A stretch of 64,000 bases of DNA from assembly GCF_000153165.2 (NCBI RefSeq), contig NC_014472.1, forward strand, positions 2,662,001-2,726,000, given 5' to 3'. The DNA is from Maribacter sp. HTCC2170. GTDB lineage: Bacteria > Bacteroidota > Bacteroidia > Flavobacteriales > Flavobacteriaceae. This document shows positions 1-30,373 of this stretch, in pieces. The notes under the pieces are model-generated. The model saw only the letters and a program-made list of their open reading frames with translations. It was not told the DNA's origin and did no database searches. The number at the start of each line of letters is the position of its first letter. The stretch's first letter is position 1. A program made the position numbers and the translations under genes.

Positions 1-723
1 TATGAAAGTATTCTATATGTGGCCTGGGCGACTATTGGAATGGGATTATTGTTAGGTAGAAAGAGCGACATGACCATAGCAGCTTCAGCCTTTGTAACTT
101 CAATGTTATTGTGGATCGCTCATCAAAGCTGGGTAGATCCATCCATTGCCAATTTACAACCAGTTTTGGATAGTTATTGGCTTATGATTCATGTAGCAGT
201 AATTGTTGGTAGTTACGGTCCTTTGACCGTTGGGATGATTTTGGGAGTGGTGTCGTTAATCCTGATTATTCTCACCAATAAAAAGAATAAAAAGCGGATG
301 CAGCTCAATTTAAAGGAATTGACCACAATCAATGAATTGTCTTTGATGGTAGGTTTGGTAATGTTGACCATAGGCAACTTTTTGGGAGGCCAATGGGCCA
401 ATGAAAGTTGGGGTCGTTATTGGGGCTGGGATCCAAAAGAAACTTGGGCCTTGATCTCGATCATGGTATATGCATTCGTAATTCATGCCCGTTTGGTGCC
501 AGGTATGCGAGGCCGATGGCTTTTCAACTTTTTAAGCATTGTGGCCTTTGGCAGTATTATGATGACTTACTTTGGTGTTAACTTCTACTTAGCAGGTTTA
601 CATAGTTATGCTAGTGGGGCACAGGTAATCACTCCTACGTTTATTTATTATACCGTTTTTGGGGTGCTTGTTTTGGGCGCTATCAGTTATTGGCGGTATA
701 AAGTCAATTATAGCAAATCATAG
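1..723 (+). CDS. ccsA: Cytochrome c assembly protein, CcsA/ResC type (C-terminal part, cut by window edge)
   Basis: The reading frame is open from base 1, so the protein begins upstream of the window; 240 residues are visible. It is a polytopic membrane protein with the tryptophan-rich heme-handling motif of the CcsA/CcmC family (WGRYWGWDPKE, near 410-440) and conserved histidines flanking it (in MIHVAVIVG before it and in LAGLHSYASG after it). In this family the protein presents heme to apocytochrome c on the periplasmic side. In Bacteroidota CcsA is often fused to ResB/CcsB in one long chain; the N-terminal part is not visible here, so a fusion can be neither shown nor excluded. The GTG at 19 is internal, not the start. 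Confidence 0.85.
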   Translation, partial: YESILYVAWATIGMGLLLGRKSDMTIAASAFVTSMLLWIAHQSWVDPSIANLQPVLDSYWLMIHVAVIVGSYGPLTVGMILGVVSLILIILTNKKNKKRMQLNLKELTTINELSLMVGLVMLTIGNFLGGQWANESWGRYWGWDPKETWALISIMVYAFVIHARLVPGMRGRWLFNFLSIVAFGSIMMTYFGVNFYLAGLHSYASGAQVITPTFIYYTVFGVLVLGAISYWRYKVNYSKS

Positions 724-972: not shown

Positions 973-3306
973 ATGAGAAATGTTACTGCATTGTTCCTGA
1001 TGTTGTTCATAACGGGTTTTGGGTTTTCGCAAAGCGCAAAAACAGTAACGATAAGTATTCTTGCTGATAAAACTTCCGAAGAAATGGAGGGGTTGTTTAC
1101 ACAATTACAGAATGAAATTAAAGCGGTAGTTGGGCAAGACGCCACCATCCTTTTTGGTGAGGTCTTGGGTAATGGGTTTGATTTGCAGAGTGCGCAATCG
1201 AACTATGAATCCTTAATTAATGATTCCTCGACAGATATTATTTTGGCCTTTGGCACTGTGAACAATTTGGTGATTACTAAACAAACCGTTCATAAAAAAC
1301 CGACAATTCTTTTCGGAGCGGTTAATAGTGACTTGGTAGATATTGACCCAAATAAGCAGTCCTCAGGAATTGACAATTTTACGTATTTGATCACTTCGCA
1401 ATCATATAAAAAAGATTTGCAAACGTTCAAAAGCCTTTACGATTATCAAAATCTTGGTATTTTGGTTGAGGATTTTCTGCCGACCGTAGTTCCATTAAAA
1501 GAGACATTAGACAAAGAATTGACAAAAATCGGTGCATCTTTTGAATTGGTTCCCTTTGGCAATGTTGATGATATTAAAAATAGTTTAGAGGGTTTTGATG
1601 CTGTTTATTTGGCGGGAGGTTTTCTTCTTACTCTTGACGAAATCAAAGAGCTGGCCGATTTTTTAATAGCTAATGAGTTGCCTTCGTTTACGGCTACAAA
1701 TATTGATGATGTATCAATAGGGCTCTTGGCAACCAACCAGGCCAAGGAAAATATGAATATATTCTTTAGAAGAATTGCCTTGGATATCGAAGCCATTGTA
1801 AATGGCACCAACCCTTCTAAATTGCCTATTTTTCTTGATTCCGATAACAATCTGACGGTAAATTATAATACCGCTGAATTGGTGGGAGTGCCAATAAAAT
1901 ATAGCCTTATCACAACTATCGATTTCGTTGGCGATTTTAAGAATGTTCTTTCTAAACGGACATATACTTTGTTGGACGTAATGAAAGAGGTTACTGAAAA
2001 TAATCTTTCCCTACAATCCGAAAGGAAAAGTGTTGCCTTGGCAAAGCAGGAGGTAAAAACAGCAAAGAGTAATTATTACCCCAATGTTTCAGCAAACGCG
2101 ACAGGAAGTTATTTGGATCCCAGGGTGGCTGAAATTTCAGGTGGACAAAACCCTGAATACAGTACAAATGGGAGTATAGTTCTAAATCAGACCATATTTT
2201 CAGAAGCTGCAAACGCCAACATTGCTATTCAAAAGAATCTTGAAAAAGCACAACAAGAGACTTATAATGCGGCTGAACTTGATGCCATTTTAAATGCGTC
2301 TACTGCTTACTTTAATACGTTGATACTAAAAACCAACGTACAGATACAAGCTCAGAACCTTGAAGTCACAGAAAAGAACTTGCAAATCGCCGAACAAAAC
2401 TATGAAGCAGGCCAAGCCAGTAAGACTGATGTTTTACGATTTAAGAGTGAGCGGGCGCAAAATACACAGACTTTGGTAGAAGCTGGAAATCAATTGGATC
2501 AGGCCTTCTATGGCTTGAACCAATTGCTTAACAACCCCATTGATTACGAGATTGATGTTGTAGATGCAGAATTGGAAGAAGGGTTATTTAAAAATTATAA
2601 CTATAAAAGAATCGGGGGACTTATTGATGATCCCACAACGCGTAAACATTTTGTGGCATTTTTAATTGAAGAGGCAAAAAACGTAGCTCCTGAGCTAAAA
2701 TCATTGGATTATAATTTGAAAGCCAACGAACGTAGTCTAAAACTTAATAGTTACGGCAGGTTTGTGCCAACCTTGGGGTTACAGGGCCAATACAATCGAG
2801 ATTTTAATCAATGGGGGGTAGGGAGCATTCCAGCACCTACTTTAAATGATAATTATAATATAGGGCTTAATGTCTCTATTCCTATTTTTCAGCAATATCA
2901 ACAAAACATAAACAAACAAACAGCGCTAATTCAACAAGATCAGTTGAATATCAATAAAGAAAATACGCAATTGAATATCGAGCGTAATGTTAATGATGCA
3001 GTGCTGAACATTATCAATGAGATTGCCAATATTGAGCTTTCCAAAGTATCTGAGGAAACCGCTAAGGAAAGCCTTGATTTAACACAGTCGTCCTATTTAA
3101 ATGGGGCTGTACCTATAACACAGTTGTTGGATGCGCAGCGCAATTATTTACAGGCAAGATTATCCAAAGCGAATGCTAGCTATAACTTCCTCTTGAGTTT
3201 TTTGCAGATGGAGCGCTATTTAGGAGGATATCTTCTATTGCATACCGAAACTGAAAATCAAGAGTTTATTCAACGGTTTGGCGAGTTTATGTTGAACAGA
3301 AATTAA
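973..3306 (+). CDS. Fusion of an ABC-type substrate-binding domain with a TolC-family outer-membrane efflux protein
   Basis: The ATG at 973 is preferred over an in-frame TTG at 949 because it opens directly into a signal peptide ending near FGFSQS; this gives 777 residues. Residues from about 25 to 325 look like a periplasmic binding protein of the ABC_sub_bind (TrpX-like) type, with alternating beta/alpha segments such as DIILAFGTVNN and AVYLAGGFLL. From about 330 to the end it is TolC-like: long heptad-rich helices, duplicated halves, and a YLNGAVPITQLLDAQRNYLQA segment typical of outer-membrane efflux proteins. It is the first gene of a probable operon with an RND adaptor (34 bases downstream) and an RND pump, so it is likely the outer-membrane exit duct. 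What the binding domain captures cannot be told from sequence. The frame is intact across the join. Confidence 0.8.
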   Translation: MRNVTALFLMLFITGFGFSQSAKTVTISILADKTSEEMEGLFTQLQNEIKAVVGQDATILFGEVLGNGFDLQSAQSNYESLINDSSTDIILAFGTVNNLVITKQTVHKKPTILFGAVNSDLVDIDPNKQSSGIDNFTYLITSQSYKKDLQTFKSLYDYQNLGILVEDFLPTVVPLKETLDKELTKIGASFELVPFGNVDDIKNSLEGFDAVYLAGGFLLTLDEIKELADFLIANELPSFTATNIDDVSIGLLATNQAKENMNIFFRRIALDIEAIVNGTNPSKLPIFLDSDNNLTVNYNTAELVGVPIKYSLITTIDFVGDFKNVLSKRTYTLLDVMKEVTENNLSLQSERKSVALAKQEVKTAKSNYYPNVSANATGSYLDPRVAEISGGQNPEYSTNGSIVLNQTIFSEAANANIAIQKNLEKAQQETYNAAELDAILNASTAYFNTLILKTNVQIQAQNLEVTEKNLQIAEQNYEAGQASKTDVLRFKSERAQNTQTLVEAGNQLDQAFYGLNQLLNNPIDYEIDVVDAELEEGLFKNYNYKRIGGLIDDPTTRKHFVAFLIEEAKNVAPELKSLDYNLKANERSLKLNSYGRFVPTLGLQGQYNRDFNQWGVGSIPAPTLNDNYNIGLNVSIPIFQQYQQNINKQTALIQQDQLNINKENTQLNIERNVNDAVLNIINEIANIELSKVSEETAKESLDLTQSSYLNGAVPITQLLDAQRNYLQARLSKANASYNFLLSFLQMERYLGGYLLLHTETENQEFIQRFGEFMLNRN

Positions 3307-3340
3307 TAATATCAAAACAGGAAACTAAAAAAACCAACAT

Positions 3341-4420
3341 ATGAAATATTTATATATACCCATAATTACGATGTTGATTTTCATTTCATGCGGGGATGAA
3401 AAAAAAGAAGAAAACAAGATAGTACGCCCCGTTAGTTATCAAGAAGTGGGTTACTTGGGGGGAGAAAAATCGCGAACCTTTAGTGGGACTTCTAAAACCG
3501 ACGAAGTGGTTAATTTAACCTTTAGAAATGGAGGTATCATTACCACCTTTGACATTAAATTGGGGCAAAAAGTAAAAAAAAGACAATTATTGGCGAAACT
3601 GGACAATGTTCAATCACGTTTGAATTATGAGAATGCGGTTTCCTCGCTTAATAGTGCTGCCTCTCAAATGAATACGGCAAAATCAAATTTGGACAGGGTA
3701 CGCTCACTTTATGAGAAAGGAAGTTCCTCGCTTAGTGATTATGAAAGCGCTAAAAATTCTTTTCTTACTGCCAAGGCAAGTCATGAATCGGCAAAACGAA
3801 CAGTTGATATACAACAAGACCAGATAGGGTACGGATATTTATATGCACCGGCAGATGGAACCATTGCATCTGTAAATGCTGAGATTAATGAATTTGTAAG
3901 TGCAGGGCAGAACATTGCGGTCCTCAACGTAAGCGGCGACATGGAAATTAGTTTAGGCATACCTGAGAGTGTGATTAACAATGTAATACAGGAAATGCCT
4001 GTGCAGCTTACATTTTCGGCTCTTGGAGATAAGACCTTTAAAGGGAAGGTGTCGGAGGTGGCTCCTTCTGTCGATAGTAATACATCTACCTATCCAGTAC
4101 GGGTAATCATTGTTGATCCTATAGATGATATAAAATCAGGGATGGCAACCAATGTGACCTTTGATTTTGGCAATGGAGACAATAAAGGAAATATTGTGAC
4201 GGTTCCAGCAAAGTCCGTTGGTGAGGATTCAGAGGGAAATTTTGTTTTTATCATAGAATCTGAAGACGGTAAACAGGGCATAGCAAAAAAACAACAGGTC
4301 ACGATCGGTGGGTTGACTTCTGAAGGGTTCGAAATAAAAAGCGGCCTTTCGGCAGGACAAAAAATAGCAACCGCAGGTTTGCAGACATTATTGAATGGTC
4401 AACAAGTACGTTTGCAATAA
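3341..4420 (+). CDS. RND efflux periplasmic adaptor (membrane fusion protein), lipoprotein
   Basis: 359 residues beginning with a lipoprotein signal peptide (hydrophobic stretch, then ISCGDE with the lipidated Cys at 17). It has the adaptor architecture: a first biotinyl-lipoyl-like half (GGIITTFDIKLGQKVKKRQLLAKLD), a helical hairpin of about 80 residues, the second lipoyl half (YLYAPADGTIASVNAEINEFVSAGQ), a beta-barrel and a membrane-proximal domain. It should link the inner-membrane pump encoded 26 bases downstream to the TolC-like protein encoded upstream. The same CAACATATG context precedes its start and that of the pump gene. Confidence 0.9.
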   Translation: MKYLYIPIITMLIFISCGDEKKEENKIVRPVSYQEVGYLGGEKSRTFSGTSKTDEVVNLTFRNGGIITTFDIKLGQKVKKRQLLAKLDNVQSRLNYENAVSSLNSAASQMNTAKSNLDRVRSLYEKGSSSLSDYESAKNSFLTAKASHESAKRTVDIQQDQIGYGYLYAPADGTIASVNAEINEFVSAGQNIAVLNVSGDMEISLGIPESVINNVIQEMPVQLTFSALGDKTFKGKVSEVAPSVDSNTSTYPVRVIIVDPIDDIKSGMATNVTFDFGNGDNKGNIVTVPAKSVGEDSEGNFVFIIESEDGKQGIAKKQQVTIGGLTSEGFEIKSGLSAGQKIATAGLQTLLNGQQVRLQ

Positions 4421-4446
4421 ACAAGTCCTACTCAAAAAACCAACAT

Positions 4447-7400
4447 ATGAATTTAACCCAATTTTCCATAGAAAAAAATAGAATTACCTATACCGTACTT
4501 GCGGTAATAGTTCTATTAGGGGTATCCTTATACCAATCATTGTCTAGAGACAGTATGCCACCTTATACAATAAGGGTTGCTACTATAGTATCACAATTTC
4601 CAGGAGCCAGCCCGGAGCGTGTGGAGCTCTTGGTAACCGATAAAATTGAAAAGGTAGTACAGGAATTACCCGAATTAAAAGAAGTTAGTAGTACGTCACG
4701 TACAGGACTTTCAATAGTCAGTGTTTCGTTAAAGGACATTGTAAAACCAAAAGACCTACAATCTGTTTGGGATAGATTGCGTAGAAAAATCGATGCTGTT
4801 CAAGGCTTACCTGATAATGTAACCCCTAACTTAAATGATGATGGAATTGGGGAAGTATATGGCATTGTTGTCGGTCTTAAGAGTGACGGGTTCTCTTATG
4901 CCGAAATGAAGGAATACGCAGATGACCTGAAAGATGATCTAATAAAATTGGACAATGCCGCCAAAGTAGAAGTTGGAGGTATTCAGGAGGAAAGGGTTTT
5001 TGTGGAGTTTGATAATGCACGATTAAAGGAATATGGTTTAACTGCCAATAAACTACAAAGTAGTATTGCCTCAACCAATATACTGAGTTCTGGAGGACAA
5101 ATAAATCTAGAGGACGAACGCATTGTATTGGAACCCACGGGGAATTTTAATGAGGTAGATGATATTAAAAAAACCTTGGTGCCTGTAGGTGATGGTAGTC
5201 AGGTTGTGTATTTGGAAGATATTACAACCGTTAAGAAAGGGTACATAGATCCTCCTAAGCAAATAGTACAAGTAAATGGATTAAATGCACTTTCATTACA
5301 TATTTCACTGATTGAAGGGGCGAACATTGTGAGATTAGGAGAAGAAGTAGATACTGTTTTGAAACAATGGGAAGAAAAGCTTCCCATTGGATTGGAAATT
5401 TCACGGTTGTCGTCTTTAGATGCCTATGTAGACAATAGCATTGTTAACTTCATTAGTAATTTAATGCAGTCAATAGCCATAGTCTTATTGGTAATGTTGG
5501 TCTTTTTGGGTTTTAGAACAGGCTTTATAATTGCCAGCCTTGTGCCAATTGTAACCATTACGACGCTTATGGTAATGGGTATTATCGATGTCGGCTTAAA
5601 TCAGGTGACTTTGGCCGCGTTAATCATGGCATTGGGGATGATGGTCGACAATGCTATTGTGGTCTCGGAATCGATTATGGTTAAAATGGAGCAGGGGGTT
5701 TCTGCCAAAAAAGCAGCCATTGATTCTTGTTCCGAATTATTTACTCCCTTATTGATTTCAACGCTAACCACCTCAGCGGCTTTCTTATCCTTTTACTTGG
5801 CAGAATCTATAATGGGAGATATCACCGGGCCCATATTTGTGGTTATTACGATTGCCTTGGTGTCTTCATGGTTTATTTCGCTGACAGTAATTACTTTATT
5901 CTGTTTCTTGTTTTTAAAGATTGGCGTAGACAAAAAGGAAAGCTTTATTGATAAATTGATCAATAATTTAAAAGTGTATTATAAAGATTTGATACTATTT
6001 GCCTTATCGCGTAAGGCTTTGGTTCTTTTAACAATTTTTGGTGCCTTTATAGTTTCGTTGTGGGGATTTACAAAAATCGAATTTCTCTTTTTCCCGGATA
6101 GTGATCGTAATATGATCACCATTAATATTAATCTTCCTCAGGGAACAAAAATTGAACGGACCCAGGAATTGGTAAAAGAAATTGAAGTATTTATAAAAGA
6201 TTCATTGCAAGTAACCGAATCCCGGCTAAATGGTGTTTCAGATTGGTTATCGTACATTGGAGAAGGGCCGGAATCCTATGATTTAGGTTATAATCCTGAT
6301 GAGGCGAATTCAAGTTATGCACATATTTTGGTAAACACGTCAGATGCAACTGTCAATCAATACCTCATAAATAAATTAGATGACTATTCATTAAAGAGTT
6401 TTCCTAATGCGGATATTAAAGTTGGACCTTTAGGGGCTGGGGGTGGTGGTACGCCTATTGAAATCAAAGTACAAGGAAAAGACCCCGATCAATTGGCAAT
6501 ATTGGCTGAAACCGTGAAGCAAAAATTATTTAGCATTTCAGGAACAAAGAACATTAAAGACGACTGGGGCCCGAAAAGTAAAAAATTCGTAATCGATATT
6601 GATCAGAACAAGGCACAAATTGCGGGGGTAACCAATCAAGATATTGCTACATCCTTACAAACGGTTTTGGATGGTTTCAATACAGGTTCTTACAGAGAAA
6701 ATGACAAATCGATACCCATTATTATGCGAGGTGACGCTAGTCAGCAGCAGACATTGGAATCTTTGGAAACCATGAACATCTATTCCCAGAATTCTGGAAA
6801 AAGCGTTCCCTTATTGCAAGTGGCGAACCTAGTTCCACAATGGCAATACACCAAGATAAAACGATTGGATCTAGACCGAACCATTAATGTGTCGAGTGAA
6901 ATAACCGATACAGGAAATGCTTCGGCGATTATGAATGAAGTAACTCCATGGTTAGACGAGCAGACACAGAACTGGCCAGCAGGGTATAGCTATCAGCTAG
7001 GGGGTGATGCGAAAAGCACAAGCGAAAATATGGGCGCCGTTATATCGTATTTACCGCTTTCTGGATTTATCATCTTTATGCTATTGATTATTCAATTCAA
7101 CTCCTTTAGAAAAACGACTATGGTTCTCTTAACGATTCCACTTGCAATTATCGGAGTTGTAATTGGTTTATTGGTCTTTCAAGAGCCATTTGGGTTTATG
7201 CCATTTTTAGGAGTGATTTCATTGGCAGGGATTGTCATTAACAATGCTATTGTATTGATAGACCGCATAGAAATAGAGATCAAGACCAAGGATAAGGTGC
7301 AAGATGCAGTAATCGCGGCTTGTTTACAACGCTTTAGGCCCATACTGTTGGCCACGTTCACGACTGTTTTAGGATTAATTCCCCTATATTTAAGTGGAGG

Positions 7401-7551
7401 CGAAATGTGGGAAGGAATGGCAGTAGGCATTATGGTAGGACTTCTTTTTGGAACGATAATTACCTTGGTTTTTATTCCTTCGTTTTTTAGTGTTCTTTAT
7501 AAAGTGGATTATAAGGATTACACATTTAATAAAGATCTTTTGGAAAACTAA
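4447..7551 (+). CDS. RND-family efflux pump, inner-membrane permease (AcrB/MexB-like)
   Basis: 1034 residues, the normal length for an RND permease. Order: N-terminal membrane helix (ITYTVLAVIVLLGVSLYQ), first large periplasmic loop with the pore-domain segment SQFPGASPERVELLVTDKIE, helices TM2-6 from about 340, second periplasmic loop from about 560 to 860, and TM8-12. TM4 carries GMMVDNAIVV, with one acidic residue where AcrB has the Asp-Asp proton relay; it lacks the DFG...DG signature of heavy-metal pumps such as the CzcA homologue in this window. Substrate therefore is unknown, probably organic. It follows the adaptor gene by 26 bases and precedes the cyclase gene by 16 bases, suggesting one transcript. 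Confidence 0.9.
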   Translation: MNLTQFSIEKNRITYTVLAVIVLLGVSLYQSLSRDSMPPYTIRVATIVSQFPGASPERVELLVTDKIEKVVQELPELKEVSSTSRTGLSIVSVSLKDIVKPKDLQSVWDRLRRKIDAVQGLPDNVTPNLNDDGIGEVYGIVVGLKSDGFSYAEMKEYADDLKDDLIKLDNAAKVEVGGIQEERVFVEFDNARLKEYGLTANKLQSSIASTNILSSGGQINLEDERIVLEPTGNFNEVDDIKKTLVPVGDGSQVVYLEDITTVKKGYIDPPKQIVQVNGLNALSLHISLIEGANIVRLGEEVDTVLKQWEEKLPIGLEISRLSSLDAYVDNSIVNFISNLMQSIAIVLLVMLVFLGFRTGFIIASLVPIVTITTLMVMGIIDVGLNQVTLAALIMALGMMVDNAIVVSESIMVKMEQGVSAKKAAIDSCSELFTPLLISTLTTSAAFLSFYLAESIMGDITGPIFVVITIALVSSWFISLTVITLFCFLFLKIGVDKKESFIDKLINNLKVYYKDLILFALSRKALVLLTIFGAFIVSLWGFTKIEFLFFPDSDRNMITININLPQGTKIERTQELVKEIEVFIKDSLQVTESRLNGVSDWLSYIGEGPESYDLGYNPDEANSSYAHILVNTSDATVNQYLINKLDDYSLKSFPNADIKVGPLGAGGGGTPIEIKVQGKDPDQLAILAETVKQKLFSISGTKNIKDDWGPKSKKFVIDIDQNKAQIAGVTNQDIATSLQTVLDGFNTGSYRENDKSIPIIMRGDASQQQTLESLETMNIYSQNSGKSVPLLQVANLVPQWQYTKIKRLDLDRTINVSSEITDTGNASAIMNEVTPWLDEQTQNWPAGYSYQLGGDAKSTSENMGAVISYLPLSGFIIFMLLIIQFNSFRKTTMVLLTIPLAIIGVVIGLLVFQEPFGFMPFLGVISLAGIVINNAIVLIDRIEIEIKTKDKVQDAVIAACLQRFRPILLATFTTVLGLIPLYLSGGEMWEGMAVGIMVGLLFGTIITLVFIPSFFSVLYKVDYKDYTFNKDLLEN

Positions 7552-7567
7552 TTTTCGTATTGGTTAA

Positions 7568-8647
7568 ATGAATCAAAACCTTGGACATTTTTTTAGATTA
7601 CTGTGGAAGCCCCTTTTGTTTTGGTCTATTGGCATAGGCTTGTTCGGAATATTCAGGTATTATGGTATCGATGATAATGAAGGTATTTTGCTTTCAGGAA
7701 ATTTAGCAGAGACACATATATCGAAAATAGTTTTGCATCATGTTTTCACAGGCTTTTCGATTGGTATTTTGTACGCTGTCATTGATTTTGTTTTTGATAA
7801 ATATGGCCCTAAGAAATTATCGCTTGGGCTTCGCTTAGTAATTGAAACCTTTGTTTACTTTACTGCGACCATTGTTATTTTCACTCTTGTACTGGAGATT
7901 TTTTCAAACGTTGGGGAAGTTAATATAGACCACGGAAAAGGGTGGTGGCGCACCAACAAAACATTTTGGACGGTCCTACTTTATATTGTCCTGTTGTCCC
8001 TGGTTTTTTCGTTCATAGAGATTGCCAGTGAAAAGTTTGGAAAAGGTGTGTTCTTAAAAATGCTATTGGGTAAATACAAGAATCCAAAAGAGGAAAAGCG
8101 CATTTTTATGTTTTTGGATTTAAAGAGTTCTACGGCTATTGCGGAGGAATTGGGGCATTTTAAATACAGCCAACTGATTCAAGATTGTTTTTATGACCTC
8201 AATGAAGTAGTTCCAAAATATGATGCCGAAATTTATCAATATGTGGGAGATGAAGCTGTGTTGAGCTGGCCTTATAAAAAAGGATTGGTAAACAACAACT
8301 GCGTGGGTTTGTTTTTTGACTTTCGGCGACAAAAATTGGCAAAGAGGGATTATTATTCCGAAAAATATGGCGTAGTCCCAGAATTCAAGGCAGGATTACA
8401 CGGTGGCGTTCTAATGGTGGCCGAAGTCGGTATTGTTAAGAAAGAACTTGCCTATCATGGCGATGTAATCAATACCTCAGCACGAATTCAAGGGGAATGT
8501 AATAAGCACAATGTCCCAATTTTGATTTCCGAGACTTTGTTAAAAGACTTAAGAGTCAATAAAGCTTATACGACTGCGTCTTTAGGTACTGTTCTCTTAA
8601 AAGGAAAACACAAAGAAATTAATATACATACCCTCAGCGAGTTATGA
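7568..8647 (+). CDS. Membrane-bound class III adenylate/guanylate cyclase-type protein
   Basis: 359 residues. The N-terminal half has about four membrane helices (near 15-31, 55-74, 90-110 and 132-152), then a class III nucleotide cyclase catalytic domain from about 176. Metal-binding Asp184 (FLDLKSST) and Asp228 (VGDEAV) and the transition-state Asn302 and Arg306 (INTSARI) are present, so the domain looks active. The residues that usually choose the base are unusual: Gln224 where adenylate cyclases have Lys, and Ala295 where they have Asp or Thr, so ATP versus GTP is not inferred. It starts 16 bases after the pump gene and its stop overlaps the start of the channel gene (ATGA), which points to translational coupling. 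Confidence 0.85.
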   Translation: MNQNLGHFFRLLWKPLLFWSIGIGLFGIFRYYGIDDNEGILLSGNLAETHISKIVLHHVFTGFSIGILYAVIDFVFDKYGPKKLSLGLRLVIETFVYFTATIVIFTLVLEIFSNVGEVNIDHGKGWWRTNKTFWTVLLYIVLLSLVFSFIEIASEKFGKGVFLKMLLGKYKNPKEEKRIFMFLDLKSSTAIAEELGHFKYSQLIQDCFYDLNEVVPKYDAEIYQYVGDEAVLSWPYKKGLVNNNCVGLFFDFRRQKLAKRDYYSEKYGVVPEFKAGLHGGVLMVAEVGIVKKELAYHGDVINTSARIQGECNKHNVPILISETLLKDLRVNKAYTTASLGTVLLKGKHKEINIHTLSEL

Positions 8648-9309
8648 TAAAAAAACTATACCCTTATCGTTTCGAACTGTTTTTTACCAGTCAAATAGCT
8701 GTTCTTTTTGGGTCCTTGGTATTTCCTGTAGTATGGTTTGAGGAAGTTTTATCCCCTATGTTGTTTCTTTTAAATATTGCTGCAGGTATACTACTGATTT
8801 CGAACAAGAAAAAGCTTATGTGGGCTTTTATTTTATTGTTTGCAATTGCAGCCTTTGTATTTGGGGGTAGCATATTAAAAAAGACACAAACCGATTCGTA
8901 TCAATTTATAAGAATGGGCGTTTATTTTGTCTTTTACATTGTTGTTACTTTAGAAATAATCAAACAAGTTTGGCGGGCTAAATCCGTAAATAAAAACGTA
9001 ATCATAGGTCTTATGAGTGGTTATGTGTCCTTGGGTTTACTGGCATTTTTTATGTTCATAAGCATTGAAATGGCCAATCCTGGTTCATTTGAAGGCCTTC
9101 TGATGGCAAGCGAAAATTTAACTGAACGTATAGATTCCCTTCTGTATTATAGTTATATCACATTGTTAACCATTGGTTACGGTGAGATAATCCCATTAAC
9201 ACCTGTAGCTCAGAAAGCAGCGATCTTAACTGGTTTGGCTGGGCAATTTTATTTAGTGATTATCACTGCTGTGGTAGTAGAGAAATATATTGTACATAGA
9301 AAAAAATAG
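8644..9309 (+). CDS. Potassium-channel-type ion channel protein
   Basis: 221 residues with about six hydrophobic segments and a pore loop holding the potassium selectivity filter TIGYG (176-180), followed by a last helix and a very short basic tail. The S4-like segment has no regular Arg/Lys ladder, so voltage sensing is doubtful. There is no C-terminal cyclic-nucleotide-binding or RCK domain. The start codon overlaps the stop of the cyclase gene by 4 bases. The pairing suggests a link between nucleotide signalling and ion flux, but no gating domain for a nucleotide is visible. It is the last gene of the probable operon and runs convergent to the ACR3 gene. Confidence 0.85.
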   Translation: MIKKLYPYRFELFFTSQIAVLFGSLVFPVVWFEEVLSPMLFLLNIAAGILLISNKKKLMWAFILLFAIAAFVFGGSILKKTQTDSYQFIRMGVYFVFYIVVTLEIIKQVWRAKSVNKNVIIGLMSGYVSLGLLAFFMFISIEMANPGSFEGLLMASENLTERIDSLLYYSYITLLTIGYGEIIPLTPVAQKAAILTGLAGQFYLVIITAVVVEKYIVHRKK

Positions 9310-9332: not shown

Positions 9333-10370
9333 TCATTCTTTTATATAGTATTTTTTTCGTAACCAAAAAGAAACGCGTACCAATAAGATAAGTGCTGGTA
9401 CTTCTACTAAAGGGCCTATTACACCGGCAAAGGCCTGCCCAGAATTTAAACCAAAAACCGCTATGGCAACTGCAATGGCCAATTCAAAATTGTTTCCTGC
9501 AGCAGTAAATGATATAGCAGCGTTTTTGTCATAATTAGCGCCCATTGCTTTGCTGACGAAAAAACCAATAAAGAACATAATTGCAAAATATACCAACAAT
9601 GGTATTGCAATTATCAATACATCAAAAGGTATTTCAACAATCAATTCACCCTTTAAAGAAAACATGATTACAATCGTGAACAAAAGAGCAATCAAAGTCA
9701 TAGGTGAAATTGTTGGAATGAACTTGGTGGAATACCATTCTTCACCCTTAAGTTTTACTAAAATGGTTCTGGATAATATGCCTAACAGAAAAGGAATGCC
9801 CAAATAAATGGCAACACTTTCAGCAATTGTCCCTATTGAGATATCGACAATAGCACCTTCGAAACCAAAATAGGGTGGAAGAACCGTGATAAAAATCCAT
9901 GCATAAAAACTATAGGCAAAAACTTGGAATATACTGTTCAAAGCTACTAATCCGGCCCCATATTCGCTGCTTCCTTCCGCAAGGTCGTTCCATACCAAAA
10001 CCATGGCAATACAACGTGCAAGACCAATTAGAATCAACCCTACCATGTATTCAGGGTAATCCCGCAAAAATGTAATAGCCAATAAAAACATTAAGACCGG
10101 ACCAATTATCCAATTGAGAATCAGTGAAATTGATAGGATTTTTGTGTTTTGAAAGACTTTTGGTAATAGGGCATAATTTACCTTTGCCAAAGGTGGGTAC
10201 ATCATTAATATCAACCCAATTGCAATGGGTAAGTTCGTTGTACCACTACTTAATGAATTGATGACCTTTGGAAATGACGGAATCGCGTACCCTATCAAAA
10301 CTCCTGCAGCCATGGCCAGAAAAATCCAAAGGGTCAGATAATTGTCTAAGAAGCTTAATTTTTTCTTCAT
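9333..10370 (-). CDS. arsB: Arsenite efflux transporter, ACR3 family
   Basis: 345 residues with about ten membrane helices, the usual ACR3 size. Recognisable ACR3 stretches are [11 protein letters not shown], the conserved Cys120 in [14 protein letters not shown], and [12 protein letters not shown] with its conserved Glu, both part of the arsenite pathway in this family. It exports As(III) across the inner membrane. It lies 3 bases downstream of the arsenate reductase gene on the same strand, so As(V) reduced there can be exported here. No ArsR-type repressor gene is present next to the pair. The symbol arsB is used loosely for ACR3; acr3 is equally correct. Confidence 0.93.
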
Positions 10371-10373
10371 GCT

Positions 10374-11003
10374 TTAAGCTAAATCAATTTGAGAAAACAC
10401 ATACACTAATTCGGTAGCAATTTGAATAGCTCTTTCTTTGTATTTTTCTTTTTGTAAAGGGGTATTGTCAAATGCCTTAGGATCTTCAAAGGTTACAGGT
10501 AGGCGTTGTTCAGCACCAGATACAAATGGACAACCGCTATCTGCTTCAGAGCAGGTCATTATTGCCAAAAACCCTGAACTTGGATTAAACTCGTCATTAA
10601 ATCTTTTTGAAAAACCAATGATAGGGTGTGCATTTTCGGCATATTTTATAGCATAGACGGGATTACTCCCTTCCGATAGGGCGGTAATTTTGAAACCTAA
10701 CCCAGTCAATGTTTGTGCAGCGACAGGATATAGGGCAGTAGCCTCGGTTCCTCCTGAATAGCACATTACATTTGGAATATTCATATGACAGGACAAAGCC
10801 TGTGCCCATACTTGGGACAAATGGCTACGACGTGAGTTATGGGTGCAAATGAAATTTAGACGAATTTCCTTTTTGGACTTTACCTTTCCTTGAATATATT
10901 CTATGAATGGTTTTAAAACTACTTTTCTTTCATCTGGGATGCTTTCAGTTTCTAAACTGTCAATAACATCTTTGATGTCCTTGAAGACTTCAGTTGTGTT
11001 CAT
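10374..11003 (-). CDS. arsC: Arsenate reductase, low-molecular-weight phosphatase type
   Basis: The ATG at 11003 (209 residues) is chosen; a TTG 45 bases further upstream is in frame but adds only a basic tail. The P-loop CX5R of the low-molecular-weight tyrosine phosphatase fold is CTHNSRRS, with Cys53 as nucleophile. Later TCSEADSGCPFV resembles the second and third redox cysteines of thioredoxin-coupled ArsC (pI258 type), followed by the usual F.DP segment. It should reduce arsenate to arsenite in the cytoplasm. The gene abuts arsB/acr3 (3 bases apart), giving a two-gene arsenic resistance unit. An N-terminal helical extension of about 45 residues precedes the phosphatase fold. Confidence 0.88.
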   Translation of the reverse strand: MNTTEVFKDIKDVIDSLETESIPDERKVVLKPFIEYIQGKVKSKKEIRLNFICTHNSRRSHLSQVWAQALSCHMNIPNVMCYSGGTEATALYPVAAQTLTGLGFKITALSEGSNPVYAIKYAENAHPIIGFSKRFNDEFNPSSGFLAIMTCSEADSGCPFVSGAEQRLPVTFEDPKAFDNTPLQKEKYKERAIQIATELVYVFSQIDLA

Positions 11004-11339
11004 TTTCTTTTCTGCTTTGACAAATGATGGTTTTACTATTCGGTACAATCGTAATTAAGGATGATTAAAAACATTGTTACAGCGAATTTAATCTTGTTTT
11101 GTGCATATTGCAATAATCCAATTGAAAGGTTTTATTTAAACTTAAAATACTTCGTTAATTATCATTGCTTCCGAATCAATTCTCAAGGATTAAATTATTT
11201 TTTGCATCTTTGCTTTATCATGAAGTAAGCGAATTATGTTATTTATAGATGTTTTGGCGATAGTGGCCAGGAAGTAATCGACTAAAAGTCGTACTTCTTG
11301 CAACATCTTTTTTCTTCTTTCCAACATAATTCAATAAAA
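11004..11339. other. Divergent intergenic region between arsC and the MATE gene
   Basis: 336 bases, AT-rich, without a credible gene. It must hold the promoters of both flanking genes. The only box resembling the Bacteroidota -7 element is CATCTTTG at 11205-11212 (one mismatch), without a well-placed TTG. I found no clear ArsR-type palindrome and no RNA gene. Confidence 0.4.
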
Positions 11340-14809: not shown

Positions 14810-16854
14810 CCGGCTTTCTGAAACTTATTGTTCACTTTTGGTAGGGTAAAATAAAAGCATGAGCCGTTTTCCATAAAGCTCTCAACCCATATTTTGCCGT
14901 TGTTCTTTTCAACCATTTCTTTACACAGGGACAATCCTAATCCAGTACCTTTTTCATCATTGGTTCCATATGTGGTTACATTGGAGTTTTTATTGAATAT
15001 TTTCTTTTGAGTTTCGATATCAATTCCAACACCTGTATCTCGAACTGAGACTTCCCAATTACTACTTCTTTCAATGGCGTCAATAGTAATAAGTCCTTTT
15101 TCAGGAGTAAATTTGATGGCATTGCTCATTAAATTTCTAATAACTATATCAATTTGATCATTGTCAGACCAGGTCAGCGTTTTAGTAGTCAATTTATTCA
15201 CGATATTAATAGACTTGACTTTGGCCGTTTCATCAAGTAAATTGATGTTTTCATTCACCAAGCTTTCCAAGGATACAATACCTGGCTTGGTGACAGATCC
15301 ATTCATTTGGGTTCTACCCCAAGATAATAAGTTGTTTAGGGTAAATGAAATATGGTCAATGTCCGCACCTAATTTGGGGATAAATTGTAAAAATTCCTTG
15401 CCATCGATTTCTCCTCCTCTATAGAGTTTTAAAAGACCTTGAAATGCGGCAATTGGTCCTCTAAGGTCATGCCCTATTATTGAGAATAGCTTATCCTTGG
15501 TTTCATTTATGTCTCTTAATTCTTTTTCATTCTTTACCAACTCAGCCGTTTTATCATAAAGTTCAGTATTGAGTCTTTTTTGGATTTTTTCATTTCTTCG
15601 AACAATCAATGTGACAATCAAGAATATTACAAGAATGAACAATGCTGCATAAATGTATCTTTTTTGGCTGGCAAGAGCCTTGGCGTTCTCTGCCATTAGA
15701 CTTTCCTTTTGTCTTTCATACTCCAACTTGGTCACCAGCATAGTCAGATTCTTCTCATTTTTATTCGCCGATAAAGTATCATTCAATGTTTGATAAATCT
15801 CATGATAGGCCAAAGCTGAATCAAAATCACCTTTATTTTTCTTTAATTTATACAGAATGAATGAGCTTCTTTGCGTTTCTTCATGAAATTTTATTTTTTT
15901 GGATATGTCATATGCTCTTAAAGCATATTGTTCAGAGAGGCTATCTTTTTCCTTACCGAAATAGGCTTCTGAAAGGCCATTCAACAACGAAGTCTCTCCT
16001 CTGTCATCTTCAAGGTTTTTATGGATCATTTCGCTTTGTTTGTACCAAAAAAGAGCCCATTTATAGTCTTTCTCTTTTAAATATGTCTTGCCTTTTATTT
16101 CATAAGCATAGGCAAGCCAATCCATTTTTTTGTGTTTTTCAAAGGTTGTTATACTGCTGTTTATATTGAACATTGCATACTCCAAATTGCCCATATCGGC
16201 ATAAACGGAAGCCATGTTGCTCATTGTCTCCGCTGCGTAAATTTCATTACCTATCTTCTTGTTTATTTTTTTTACTGTTTTGAAAAACTCAATGGCCTGA
16301 TTAAAATCTTTCTGAGCGGCATATAAATTAGCAATGTTTTCATTGACTATTGACAGCATGGTCAAATTGTCTATTTGAGTAGCTATTTCAATGCATTCCA
16401 AATATCCACTAAGAGCTTCTGCATAATCACCCTTAAAGTCATAAGCCCCTGCAATACTGTTTAGAATAGTAAGGGTTAAATGCTTATTCTCTAGTTGTTT
16501 TGTAGCATTCAATGCTTTTTGGTAATTCTTTATAGCTTGATCATAATCACCTTTATCTGAATAGAAATTTCCGATACCAACCAAAGATTCGCCCATGGTA
16601 TGACCATTGCCAATGTCGACACTCAATTTATAGGCTTCTTGTGAAAGTGCTAATAGACTATCCGTCTTATAATAACGTAACTCGGAGCCTAAATTGTTCA
16701 ATAGGCTTATGAAAGTACTATCCTTTGGGCTAAACCCTTGTTCGGAGCGCTGTTTCTTAATTTGATACTCAAGACTATCCCTACGGGCTAGTTGAGCACA
16801 GATTTGGTTGAATCCAAACACTAATATAATTAGTAATAAAAGGGACCTTTTCAA
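14806..16854 (-). CDS. TPR-containing sensor histidine kinase
   Basis: 682 residues. A signal peptide (1-20) leads to a periplasmic array of tetratricopeptide repeats from about 60 to 360 (for example NFYSDKGDYDQAIKNYQKAL and GAYDFKGDYAEALSGYLECI), a coiled segment, one membrane helix at about 399-419, then a cytoplasmic kinase. The dimerisation/phosphoacceptor helix has SIIGHDLRGP with His462, and the ATPase domain has the N box (RNLMSNAIKFT), the G1 box (DTGVGID) and the G2 box (GTGLGLSLCKEM). No response regulator is adjacent, so it is an orphan kinase here. This architecture is common in Bacteroidota; the signal sensed is unknown. Confidence 0.9.
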   Translation of the reverse strand: MKRSLLLLIILVFGFNQICAQLARRDSLEYQIKKQRSEQGFSPKDSTFISLLNNLGSELRYYKTDSLLALSQEAYKLSVDIGNGHTMGESLVGIGNFYSDKGDYDQAIKNYQKALNATKQLENKHLTLTILNSIAGAYDFKGDYAEALSGYLECIEIATQIDNLTMLSIVNENIANLYAAQKDFNQAIEFFKTVKKINKKIGNEIYAAETMSNMASVYADMGNLEYAMFNINSSITTFEKHKKMDWLAYAYEIKGKTYLKEKDYKWALFWYKQSEMIHKNLEDDRGETSLLNGLSEAYFGKEKDSLSEQYALRAYDISKKIKFHEETQRSSFILYKLKKNKGDFDSALAYHEIYQTLNDTLSANKNEKNLTMLVTKLEYERQKESLMAENAKALASQKRYIYAALFILVIFLIVTLIVRRNEKIQKRLNTELYDKTAELVKNEKELRDINETKDKLFSIIGHDLRGPIAAFQGLLKLYRGGEIDGKEFLQFIPKLGADIDHISFTLNNLLSWGRTQMNGSVTKPGIVSLESLVNENINLLDETAKVKSINIVNKLTTKTLTWSDNDQIDIVIRNLMSNAIKFTPEKGLITIDAIERSSNWEVSVRDTGVGIDIETQKKIFNKNSNVTTYGTNDEKGTGLGLSLCKEMVEKNNGKIWVESFMENGSCFYFTLPKVNNKFQKAG

Positions 16855-26041: not shown

Positions 26042-29000
26042 TCATAATGTCAAATGATTTATTGCGATAACCGTTTGATTATAATTGTTCAGGTTTTCTA
26101 AATACGATAGAGTTAAACGGTATGCATTTTCCAAACTCTGTATATATTGAAAGAAGTCTATTTCTCCATTTTTATAGCTTAAGGATGCCGTTTTTAGAAT
26201 TTCATCCGAAAGGCTTTGCCCATCAACTTGGTAATAAGACAGGGCTTCTTCATACTTCTGAAGCTCTCCCATTAATTCTTCTTTTTTCAATAGGAGTCTA
26301 TTTGTATACTCATTGGATTGCTCAGAGGCTATTTCTTTGGCAATGTTGGCAGCTTTGATTTTGGACGAGTTGCCACTGAATAATAGTGGAATTTTGAGAC
26401 CAACCTGATATCCATAAAGGTTTTCACCAAGGCCCGAGTTGGTTCCTTGAAAGTACTCAAAGCTTATATCAGGTAAAAGACGTTGTTTTTCCAATCCACT
26501 TTTAGCTCGGAACAATTCATTTCTTTTATTATAAAGAGAAATACCGGCATTCAATGAAATATCATTTTTGGTGACTTGCAGTTTTTTAAGGGGCATCACT
26601 GCAATCTTCAACAAAGAATCCACTTGGGTTATTTTTTGAAGCCTTGAAAAGGCTATGGTAATATCTTCCTTAGCTTGATTAAAAAGGGCACGGAGCTCTT
26701 TATGTTTGGCCTGAGCAGTTATCTTTTCCAGATAATTGGTTTCGCCCAACTCAAATCTACGTAGAGAAGCCTGAGCGAACTTTTGATATACGCTGTCTAA
26801 ATATTTATAAACTTGTCTTTTTTCACGGGTATATAAAAGCTCGTAATAGGCGGAAGCTATTTCATGCTCAAGCTGTTGTTCTTGAATGTCATATAGACTG
26901 TTTTCAATGGCTGTGCTCATCTTGTTTATTTGCCTGCTTTTGAAATACAGTGTAGGAAACAATATGTTCTGCTGAATACCATAAACTTTGAGAGGTTCAT
27001 TATTGAATGCCAAATTATTTTGGTCATATTGATAGAATATCTCGGTCTTTTCAAAATCAAAGGCGCTTCCGATAAGGGCTTTTGATTCATCAACTTTTAG
27101 CGCTGCTGCTTTTAGCCCGGCATTATTTTCCAATGCCAAACTTCTAATCTGCTCAAAGTCAAATCCTCTCTCCTGTGCATTTACCGACAACGTACCAAGC
27201 ATCAAAAGAATTGATAAAACCTTGGCAGGTTTCTTTTTGAGGATTTTCTTTATCTCATTTTTATTCTCAAAAATTGAATAGAGTACTGGCAACACGACAA
27301 GTGTGAGTATTGTAGCGGTAATCAAACCACCAATGACCACAGTGGCCAATGGTCGTTGTACCTCGGCTCCTGCACTCGTAGAAATTGCCATGGGCAAGAA
27401 ACCTAGAGCCGCGGCTGAAGCAGTCAAAAGCACCGCCCTTAACCTATCTTTTGAACCTTTTTTTATTCGTTCTTCGGTATCATTCATTCCTTGAAGTTTA
27501 AGTTCTTTAAAGTGTTCTATCATGACAATTCCATTTAAAACAGCAATTCCAAAAAGAGCGATAAAGCCTACTCCGGCAGAAATACTGAAAGGCATATCCC
27601 TTATCCAAAGAAAAAACACCCCCCCAACGGCTGCTAACGGAATGGCGGAGTAAATCATCAATGCCTCTTTTACTGATTTAAAAGCAAAGAAGAGTAATAG
27701 GAAAATCAATAGCAGAGCAATGGGCACAGCTATTTTTAATCTGTCTTTGGCACTTTGCAAGTTTTCGAACTGCCCCCCATAAGTAATGGTATACCCTACT
27801 GGCAGTTTTAGGTTAGACTCGATTAGATTTTGAACATCAGTAACAACAGATTGTAAATCCCTGTTACGAACATTGATACCAACTACAATTCTTCGTTTTG
27901 TATCATCTCTTGATATTTTTGCAGCTCCTTTGGTATATGATATTTGTGCGAGTTCACTTAACGGAATTTTGCCGCCAGCAGGCAAATCAACATAGAGGTT
28001 TTTAATATCATCTATATCCTTTCTACTATTATCATCCAGTCGTAGGGTGAGGTCAAAACGTTTCTCTCCTTCGAAGACACTTCCTAAATTTGTGCCTGCA
28101 AAACCCATCGAAATCAATTTATTCAAATCATTGATGTTTAGCCCGTAGCGTGCGATTTTAGCTCTGTCGAACTTGATGTTCATTTGTGGTAATCCTGCAA
28201 CTTTTTCAACGCTTATATCAGCTGCCCCATCAACACCTTCAATCAATCTTTTGATTTCATTCCCTTTTTTATTGAGGATGTCCAAATCTTCTCCAAAGAC
28301 TTTGATGGCGATATCCGCGCGAACACCGGTTATCAATTCATTAAAGCGCATCTCAATTGGTTGGGTGAATTCAACCTCCATTCCTGGAATAATCCCCAAT
28401 GCTTCCTTGAATTTATCAGCCAATTCATCTTTAGAAGATGCCGATACCCACTCCTTTTTTGGTTGTAGGGTTATGATAACATCGGTCTCTTCCATAGACA
28501 TTGGGTCTGTAGGAACTTCTGCAGCACCTATTCTTGTTACAACCTGTTCAACTTCAGGAAATTCATCCAATAGAATTTGTTCAATTTTTGTTGTGGTTTC
28601 AACTGTTTTACTCAATGAGGTCCCTGTTTTTAGAATAGGCTGTATTACGAAGTCACCTTCATCCAAAGTGGGTACGAACTCTCCGCCCATGGTTGTAAAT
28701 AGGTATATGGAAAACGCCAACAAAAACGTTGCAATTCCCAACACCAATTTTTTACTGGCCAATGCCCACTCGATGACCGGTTCATATACTTTACGTAAAA
28801 ACCGCATCAATCGTATCGAAATATTCTTATCCGACACTTTGGTAGGCTTCAGTATCAGTGTTGAAATGACCGGGACATAGGTAAAACATAGAAGCATGGC
28901 CCCTATAAGCGCAAAGCTGAATGTCAATGCCATTGGTTTGAACATTTTGCCTTCAACACCACTTAGAGATAGAATGGGAATGAAAACAATTAGGATGATC

Positions 29001-30373
29001 AGTTGCCCGAAAATTGCTGAATTCATCATCTTGGATGCACCATTAAATGTAATTCTGTCTTTGGCGTGAGCAAGTTCTGCCGGTGATAATCGCTCCAATT
29101 CCATTCGCTTGGATGTTATCTGGAAGGCTATAAATTCTACAATTATGACTGCTCCGTCAATGATTATCCCAAAATCTATGGCCCCTAGACTCATTAAATT
29201 GGCATCAACCCCGAACAAATACATAAAAGATAATGCAAACAATAAACAAAGAGGAATAACTGAAGCTACTACTAATCCCGACCTAAAATTCCCCAATAAT
29301 AGAACAACAACGAAGATAACGATCAAACACCCCAAAATAAGGTTTTCAGCTACTGTAAAGGTGGTTTTTCCAATAAGCTCACTACGCTCTAAAAAAGGAT
29401 TAATATAAACCCCTTCTGGCAAGGTTTTCGAAATTGATTCAACACGCGCTTTAACCGCATCAATGACCTGTTTAGAATTGGCATCTTTAAGCATCATTAC
29501 TTGTCCAAGCACTTTTTCACCTTCACCATTCCCCGTTATCGCACCAAAACGGGTAGCACTTCCAAACCCAACATTTGCAATATTCTTGACTAGAATTGGG
29601 ATTCCGTCAACATTCTTGACAACAATATTCTCAATATCTTCAAGGGAAGAAATCAATCCTTCACCCCTAATAAAAAATGCTTGGTTCGTTTTTTCAATAT
29701 AGCCACCACCTGCAACACTATTATTGTTTTCAAGTGCTTCAAAAACTTCGCCGATGGTAATATTCATCGCATTTAGTTTTTGGGTGTTAATCGCAACTTC
29801 ATACTGCTTTAAAAAACCGCCCCACGTATTCACTTCTACCACGCCGGGGATTCCTGATAGTTGTCGTTTAACGATCCAATCTTGGATGGTACGCAGATCC
29901 ATCGCCGAGTATTGGTCTTTGTATCCTGGTTTAGTATCCAATATATATTGATAGATTTCACCTAGTCCGGTTGTTATGGGTCCCATTTCAGGGGTTCCAA
30001 AATCTTCAGGGATTTTTTCAGAAGCTGATTTTATTTTTTCGGCAATCAATTGGCGTGGAAGATAGGTACCCATGTCGTCCTCAAAGACGATAGTTACAAC
30101 TGATAAGCCAAACTTTGAGATTGAACGAATTTCAACAACACCAGGTAAATTGGCCATTTCCAGCTCTACTGGATAGGTAATGAACTGCTCTATATCCTGT
30201 GTTGAAAGGTTTTGTGAGGTGGTTATGACCTGCACTTGATTATTGGTTACATCTGGAACTGCACCAATTGAGATTTGAGTAAGGGAGTAAATCCCAAAAC
30301 AAACTATAAAAAGAGTTAGTAAAAGAACTATCAATTTGTTCTTTATACTGAATTGTATAATTTTTGATAACAT
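26042..30373 (-). CDS. czcA: CzcA-type heavy-metal RND pump fused to a CzcC/TolC-type outer-membrane protein
   Basis: 1443 residues in one uninterrupted frame. Residues 1 to about 1040 are a full heavy-metal RND pump: N-terminal helix, periplasmic loop starting PDVTNNQVQVITTSQNLS, and TM4 with DFGIIIDGAVIIVEF, the form seen in CzcA-type pumps for divalent Zn/Co/Cd/Ni rather than the CusA form for Cu/Ag. From about 1050 comes KVLSILLMLGTLSVNAQE, which looks like a signal peptide with cleavage site, then a TolC-like region of about 390 residues (long helices, AYRLTLSYLENLNN near the end). Such fusions occur in Bacteroidota. It is flanked by its adaptor gene and a His-rich small protein gene. 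Confidence 0.92.
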   Translation of the reverse strand: MLSKIIQFSIKNKLIVLLLTLFIVCFGIYSLTQISIGAVPDVTNNQVQVITTSQNLSTQDIEQFITYPVELEMANLPGVVEIRSISKFGLSVVTIVFEDDMGTYLPRQLIAEKIKSASEKIPEDFGTPEMGPITTGLGEIYQYILDTKPGYKDQYSAMDLRTIQDWIVKRQLSGIPGVVEVNTWGGFLKQYEVAINTQKLNAMNITIGEVFEALENNNSVAGGGYIEKTNQAFFIRGEGLISSLEDIENIVVKNVDGIPILVKNIANVGFGSATRFGAITGNGEGEKVLGQVMMLKDANSKQVIDAVKARVESISKTLPEGVYINPFLERSELIGKTTFTVAENLILGCLIVIFVVVLLLGNFRSGLVVASVIPLCLLFALSFMYLFGVDANLMSLGAIDFGIIIDGAVIIVEFIAFQITSKRMELERLSPAELAHAKDRITFNGASKMMNSAIFGQLIILIVFIPILSLSGVEGKMFKPMALTFSFALIGAMLLCFTYVPVISTLILKPTKVSDKNISIRLMRFLRKVYEPVIEWALASKKLVLGIATFLLAFSIYLFTTMGGEFVPTLDEGDFVIQPILKTGTSLSKTVETTTKIEQILLDEFPEVEQVVTRIGAAEVPTDPMSMEETDVIITLQPKKEWVSASSKDELADKFKEALGIIPGMEVEFTQPIEMRFNELITGVRADIAIKVFGEDLDILNKKGNEIKRLIEGVDGAADISVEKVAGLPQMNIKFDRAKIARYGLNINDLNKLISMGFAGTNLGSVFEGEKRFDLTLRLDDNSRKDIDDIKNLYVDLPAGGKIPLSELAQISYTKGAAKISRDDTKRRIVVGINVRNRDLQSVVTDVQNLIESNLKLPVGYTITYGGQFENLQSAKDRLKIAVPIALLLIFLLLFFAFKSVKEALMIYSAIPLAAVGGVFFLWIRDMPFSISAGVGFIALFGIAVLNGIVMIEHFKELKLQGMNDTEERIKKGSKDRLRAVLLTASAAALGFLPMAISTSAGAEVQRPLATVVIGGLITATILTLVVLPVLYSIFENKNEIKKILKKKPAKVLSILLMLGTLSVNAQERGFDFEQIRSLALENNAGLKAAALKVDESKALIGSAFDFEKTEIFYQYDQNNLAFNNEPLKVYGIQQNILFPTLYFKSRQINKMSTAIENSLYDIQEQQLEHEIASAYYELLYTREKRQVYKYLDSVYQKFAQASLRRFELGETNYLEKITAQAKHKELRALFNQAKEDITIAFSRLQKITQVDSLLKIAVMPLKKLQVTKNDISLNAGISLYNKRNELFRAKSGLEKQRLLPDISFEYFQGTNSGLGENLYGYQVGLKIPLLFSGNSSKIKAANIAKEIASEQSNEYTNRLLLKKEELMGELQKYEEALSYYQVDGQSLSDEILKTASLSYKNGEIDFFQYIQSLENAYRLTLSYLENLNNYNQTVIAINHLTL

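Follow-up and report, generated by a model that had tools for sequence, protein, structure and literature searches.

A K+ channel gene linked to a tripartite RND exporter in Bacteroidota, with possible charge compensation of efflux

Organization of the locus

A run of five genes was analysed in a 64,000-nucleotide stretch of DNA from Maribacter sp. HTCC2170 (contig NC_014472.1, positions 2,662,001 to 2,726,000; hereafter the window). The genes encode, in order, a TolC-family outer-membrane factor (OMF) with an N-terminal periplasmic-binding-protein (PBP) domain, a periplasmic adaptor or membrane fusion protein (MFP), a permease of the resistance-nodulation-division (RND) type, a membrane class III nucleotide cyclase and a six-transmembrane (6TM) K+ channel (Table 1). 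Comparison with related genomes shows that the OMF, MFP, RND permease and K+ channel genes form the conserved unit, and this linkage is much firmer than the mechanism proposed for it below.

The genes are separated by 34, 26, 16 and -4 bases, as read directly from the sequence; an alternative, earlier TTG start at position 949 is possible for the first. An earlier note, prepared from the window sequence alone, had proposed the same five genes as an operon. Their coordinates, order and spacing were reproduced exactly, and the same-strand run is consistent with an operon, the five genes being probably co-transcribed. Searches of the locus for consensus sigma-70 and Bacteroidetes promoters and for terminators gave matches at chance level. 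Short overlaps similar to that between the cyclase and channel genes join the RND gene to the channel gene in cyclase-free relatives.

Table 1 Features of the locus, in window positions; the five genes are from open reading frames.
Feature	Position	Strand	Basis or remark
TolC-family OMF with N-terminal PBP domain, 777 amino acids	973-3306	+	OEP/TolC match
N-terminal OMF extension, predicted type-1 PBP fold, TrpX-like	1030-1986	+	AlphaFold2, Foldseek and profile match
RND periplasmic adaptor (MFP)	3341-4420	+	TIGR01730, E = 2.6e-68
RND permease, nearest solved relatives MexK and TriC	4447-7551	+	ACR_tran, E = 1.7e-162
Membrane class III nucleotide cyclase, about 4 transmembrane helices, catalytic residues 180-351	7568-8647	+	Guanylate_cyc, E = 3e-9
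ATGA overlap of cyclase stop and channel start	8644-8647	+	Read directly
6TM K+ channel, 221 amino acids, no cytosolic nucleotide-binding or RCK domain	8644-9309	+	Ion_trans_2, E = 4.5e-8
Selectivity filter TIGYG	9169-9183	+	GYG invariant in two alignments
Cytochrome-assembly gene	19-723		225-250 bases upstream of the first pump gene

Conservation of the pump-channel unit

Conservation was assessed in 400 genomes drawn evenly from the family, with a cut-off of E ≤ 1e-200 for RND orthologues. Such orthologues occur in 52 genomes (53 loci), and OMF and MFP genes precede the RND gene at all 53; the MFP gene adjoins the RND gene in nearly all loci examined. A channel gene lies within 3 kb of the RND gene in 43 of the 53 loci, and where the two adjoin, the gap ranges from -32 to +60 bases with a median of 1 base. 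The channel is present in 44 of the 52 genomes with an RND orthologue and in 20 of the 348 others (odds ratio 90, p = 9e-35, a value that overstates independence because the genomes are related). Pump and channel stay linked across dozens of genera, above chance expectation. The distances of RND and channel are correlated (r = 0.69; maximum on shuffling 0.13), a pattern that shared species history alone could produce. The earlier note had described a cyclase-channel pair joined to a pump; it is instead the pump and the channel that constitute the conserved unit, to which cyclases are recurrent additions.

A second scan, of named genomes, yielded 80 Flavobacteriaceae channel loci together with loci in Roseivirga, a Flammeovirgaceae bin and Labilibacter, most of them with the pump directly upstream. 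The unit is therefore not confined to the family. This set was chosen by the channel, and unbiased rates come from the 400-genome draw only. In a phylum-wide draw, an RND gene from outside the order (locus L262, 45% identity) is followed after 12 bases by a channel-like gene (31%), so the pairing either is ancient or has originated on two occasions. Other distant pumps of this draw, including two at 70-72% identity, have no visible channel, one of them lying on a contig that stops shortly past the pump. A close channel is missing from eleven sampled congeners of the window genome; thus, the operon is patchy even at the genus level.

Two further arrangements were recorded. In one genome (G029; L036:7676-8305 and 15184-15879) two channel genes flank a single pump, the divergent upstream copy being 68% identical to the window channel and the downstream copy 51%. 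In L049:2562-9108, an unrelated MFP-RND-OMF set (RND 23% identity) is followed, 44 bases after the OMF gene, by a channel of the broad family (36%).

The tripartite exporter

The TolC part of the OMF starts at about residue 334 (Pfam/NCBIfam OEP/TolC match, E = 1e-53, including residues 334-520). A Pfam search matched no family in the N-terminal part; a profile of 46 OMF orthologues matches 3lkv there with E = 1.1e-4. The AlphaFold2 model of the N-terminal domain, with a mean predicted local distance difference test score (pLDDT) of 85, exhibits a type-1 PBP fold, and its best Foldseek matches are CD0873 (6hnj/6hni), 3lft (with L-Trp) and 3lkv, at E-values of 1e-11 to 1e-13 and TM scores of at most 0.70, both the model and the matches being predictions. 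On this modelling, the first gene is a genuine fusion of a TrpX-like (PF04392-type) type-1 PBP fold to TolC; the profile match and the predicted fold support the binding-protein/TolC fusion recognized previously, for which nothing relevant was found in the open-access literature. All full-length OMF orthologues are about 775-815 amino acids long, each with this N-terminal extension, so the fusion is ancestral. The OMF domain shares its fold with TrpX and CD0873 (ABC_sub_bind-type proteins) but differs from them in being fused to TolC, in having no adjoining ATP-binding cassette (ABC) transporter genes and in lying below Pfam detection. The likely cleavage of the signal peptide would leave an N-terminal Gln, which is common in Bacteroidetes (PMC5837995).

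The OMF, the MFP and a full-length RND permease are encoded together, as in an RND (HAE1) tripartite pump. Over its full length the permease is closest to MexK (9xwg, E = 5e-162) and TriC (6vej, E = 2e-142). The locus thereby resembles the MexJK and TriABC-type systems of Pseudomonas aeruginosa, with all three components present, and differs from them in the binding-protein domain of its OMF and in the attached K+ channel gene. The AcrB proton relay comprises D407, D408, K940 and R971, which are essential in that protein (PMC11058585). By our own reading of the alignment to AcrB, the window permease keeps the first and last of these as D401 and R962, whereas D408 and K940 correspond to N402 and N932; MexK, in contrast, retains the Asp pair. 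The D, N, N, R pattern holds throughout 122 RND orthologues apart from one deviation at a single position, D401-N402 of transmembrane helix 4 and N932 of helix 10 being invariant or nearly so. The idea that this relay is unique to the channel-linked pump is weakened, as one other RND permease of the window genome and distant channel-less RND orthologues also carry the D-N/N pattern.

The K+ channel

The channel model (pLDDT 91) comprises six transmembrane helices and a pore helix. The pore helix between two transmembrane helices and the T(I/V)GYG filter are those of a K+ channel; the filter named in the earlier note was located, and its GYG is invariant among 58 aligned channels. The channel is probably K+-selective. 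Solved channels match weakly (Kv-type, SthK and GORK-like). The fourth helix (residues 84-111) has no repeated Arg of the kind found in an S4 voltage sensor, either in the window sequence or in the consensus. Neither the domain search nor the model showed a cyclic-nucleotide-binding domain (CNBD) or a domain that regulates K+ conductance (RCK). The 6TM layout, the weak structural match to SthK and the nearby cyclase gene recall the cyclic-nucleotide-gated K+ channels SthK and MloK1, but the window channel lacks their nucleotide-binding domain. Gating through a CNBD was rejected, since the protein stops just after the inner helix, and a channel so built is unlikely to be gated directly by the cyclase product; a direct action of a nucleotide signal on the channel is not supported.

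The cyclase and its repeated recruitment

The catalytic domain of the window cyclase has the residues common to membrane class III cyclases, with metal-binding D184 and D228 and the transition-state/catalytic residues N302 and R306 conserved. The base-specifying positions carry Q224 and A295 in place of Lys/Asp (ATP) or Glu/Cys (GTP), and because of these residues the product is not predictable. With about four transmembrane helices, the anchor here differs from the 6TM anchors treated in PMC4821796. PADLOC profiles for PycC of the Pycsar system match the domain weakly (1.7e-6), at the level of the class III fold, but the window cyclase is membrane-bound and no Pycsar effector gene lies beside it; a role in Pycsar defence was rejected, the matches being generic and no adjacent effector that binds cyclic nucleotides being recognized.

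A cyclase gene lies between the RND and channel genes in 2 of the 53 loci (the window and G419) and in five more named genomes of the Croceivirga/Allomuricauda group. It comes after the channel in two Roseivirga genomes and in Labilibacter, and two genes past the channel in G129, with an exchanger between; in G046 it follows a channel-less pump and in G180 it is convergent with one. The pump-linked cyclases fall in several lineages of the tree. The cyclases found in the RND-cyclase-channel order group in a single clade of moderate support (0.84) that also contains unlinked cyclases, so this order may have a single origin followed by losses. In pump genomes, 4 of the 31 loci of close cyclases lie within 1 kb of the pump (random placement gives p about 2e-7); with some four paralogues per genome taken into account, p remains below 0.001 by our own estimate. 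Within a distance of 1 kb, no cyclase-channel pair lacking a pump was found among the 400 genomes, and such a pair was rejected as the ancestral unit, since it is pump and channel that are conserved. The earlier note had held that its proposal would be refuted if the five-gene order were restricted to close relatives and the cyclase-channel pair common elsewhere: the first is borne out, the order being rare, and the second is not. That cyclases have reached the pump locus repeatedly suggests a regulatory role, with the cyclase as an optional regulator of the locus.

Many cyclase orthologues (for example G024:C2, G046:C2, G147:C2 and G349:C20) lie 4-8 kb from contig ends. They are perhaps beside rRNA operons, which suggests a conserved, unlinked cyclase locus.

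Other genes at pump loci

A CPA1 Na+/H+ exchanger gene lies immediately upstream of the OMF gene, on the same strand, at 14 related loci, which makes it a further cation gene linked to this pump. Further same-strand genes upstream of the OMF encode a metallophosphatase-Omp85-like protein (11 loci), a 136-amino-acid protein (15) and a MarR/GbsR-like regulator (6); all these figures count loci rather than independent events, as some loci of the two collections share a genome. The order exchanger-OMF-MFP-RND-cyclase-channel is found at L101, L152, L185 and L186. The nearest solved sequences to the exchanger are sperm-type Na+/H+ exchangers, and by analogy only, the loci of these relatives, which combine such an exchanger with a cyclase and a K+ channel, recall sperm SLC9C1, soluble adenylyl cyclase and a K+ channel. 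Unlike SLC9C1, the exchanger (413 amino acids) is too short for added voltage-sensor and nucleotide-binding domains, and its orthologue in the window genome (74% identical) is unlinked to the pump.

In some genomes the slot between RND and channel genes holds Tle1-like hydrolase, lipoprotein, DUF3575 or META/DUF4377 genes. At L156:8106-9991 and L216:8148-9995 (Aquimarina, Flavivirga), a lipoprotein gene and a gene of the Tle1-like phospholipase family lie between pump and channel. L194:10683-14342 and at least 10 related loci encode, beside the channel or upstream of the pump, a large protein in which a metallophosphatase is joined to an Omp85/ShlB-like barrel, whether or not a pump is present. 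A PepT-like gene divergent to some pumps was judged from its sequence to be housekeeping.

Possible mechanism and alternatives

RND pumps are usually studied as stand-alone, proton-driven machines. The pump-channel linkage in marine flavobacteria suggests that pumping is tied to the ion and voltage balance of the cell. As a K+ channel has been kept with one pump family over dozens of genera, a link between efflux energetics and K+/voltage homeostasis becomes testable, and the exchanger upstream and the cyclase at some loci add to it. No description of a pump-channel unit or RND-channel operon was found in the open-access literature, and the word potassium is absent from the accessible part of a long review of tripartite pumps.

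The preferred reading, with a probability of roughly 0.4, is that of a pump-channel operon of Bacteroidota in which the K+ channel compensates the charge movement of the pump. The OMF with its TrpX-like binding domain, the adaptor and the permease would make up a MexK/TriC-type tripartite exporter, with the channel as its conserved accessory. Through the channel, K+ would cross the inner membrane and balance the positive charge brought inward by the coupling ion, so that the membrane potential driving export would be held or restored. The binding domain would sense or capture a periplasmic solute, and the membrane cyclase would be an optional sensor-regulator whose cyclic nucleotide acts not on the channel but on another receptor, such as a transcription factor. 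Gene identities, order and spacing, the conserved pump-channel pairing and the repeated recruitment of cyclases are documented directly, whereas co-transcription, K+ selectivity, the compensation, the ligand and the product and target of the cyclase are inferred. Charge compensation is the simplest physical reason for a K+ channel to accompany an electrogenic antiporter, and the exchanger fits such an ion-energetic theme. The functional link among pump, channel and cyclase that the earlier note proposed is probable, and its theme of membrane potential is plausible. A more elaborate version is rather doubtful: a self-contained, electrically compensated efflux machine with non-AcrB ion coupling in the RND permease, a dedicated K+ channel, a cargo-sensing OMF domain and, in some lineages, a cation/proton exchanger and a membrane cyclase.

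Several observations weigh against charge compensation. The coupling ion is uncertain because the permease lacks equivalents of AcrB D408 and K940. About a third of the channels in the 400-genome draw (24 of 67) are not beside an RND gene, showing that the channel also serves other purposes. At the E-value cut-off, seven pumps with identities of 66% or more lack a channel within 3 kb (one of them, in G274, is adjoined by a 37% identical channel), and three more distant pumps have none either; the pump can thus work without the channel. Moreover, the envelope genes in the RND-channel slot fit a cluster of general envelope function equally well.

An explanation in terms of envelope stress is nearly as good as the compensation model. 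Pump, channel, cyclase, exchanger, hydrolase and lipoprotein would be co-expressed for envelope or osmotic stress, the channel and the pump not being directly coupled in biochemical terms. The assortment of envelope genes in the slot is consistent with this explanation, as are pump-less channels that adjoin a metallophosphatase-Omp85-like gene or DUF3575/META genes and the MarR/GbsR-like regulator upstream of some pumps. It is nevertheless possible rather than likely, as the channel alone is near-constant with the pump, whereas each other gene occurs in a minority of loci.

A signalling unit along the lines of the earlier note, in which the cyclase product acts on the channel by gating or modulation and the pump responds to or exports the nucleotide, is improbable. 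Cyclases have indeed been recruited repeatedly and on either side of the channel, and the catalytic residues of the window cyclase are intact; yet the channel lacks a CNBD, the majority of pump-channel units stand without a cyclase alongside, and two loci combine cyclase and pump with no channel. That the cyclase of the window genome is a chance insertion, functionally unconnected to the pump, is quite improbable as well: its rarity in the sampled pump-channel slots and the abundance of its family, with three close paralogues elsewhere in the same genome, would agree with chance, but several separate cyclase lineages are found at this one locus, much more often than chance would predict. For the channel-like protein, a role as a non-conducting or structural accessory to the permease is very improbable, since the invariant GYG filter and pore region argue for conduction, although the channel gene sits tightly behind the permease gene and often overlaps its end.

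Flanking genes in the window

Directly downstream of the channel gene, two convergent genes occupy the minus strand (9333-10370 and 10374-11048). This segment (9333-11048) appears to encode an ACR3-type arsenite exporter-like protein and an arsenate-reductase-like phosphatase, both named by sequence appearance only. Further along the minus strand (27269-30361) lies a second, distant RND permease (23% identity) inside an open frame of 1445 amino acids.

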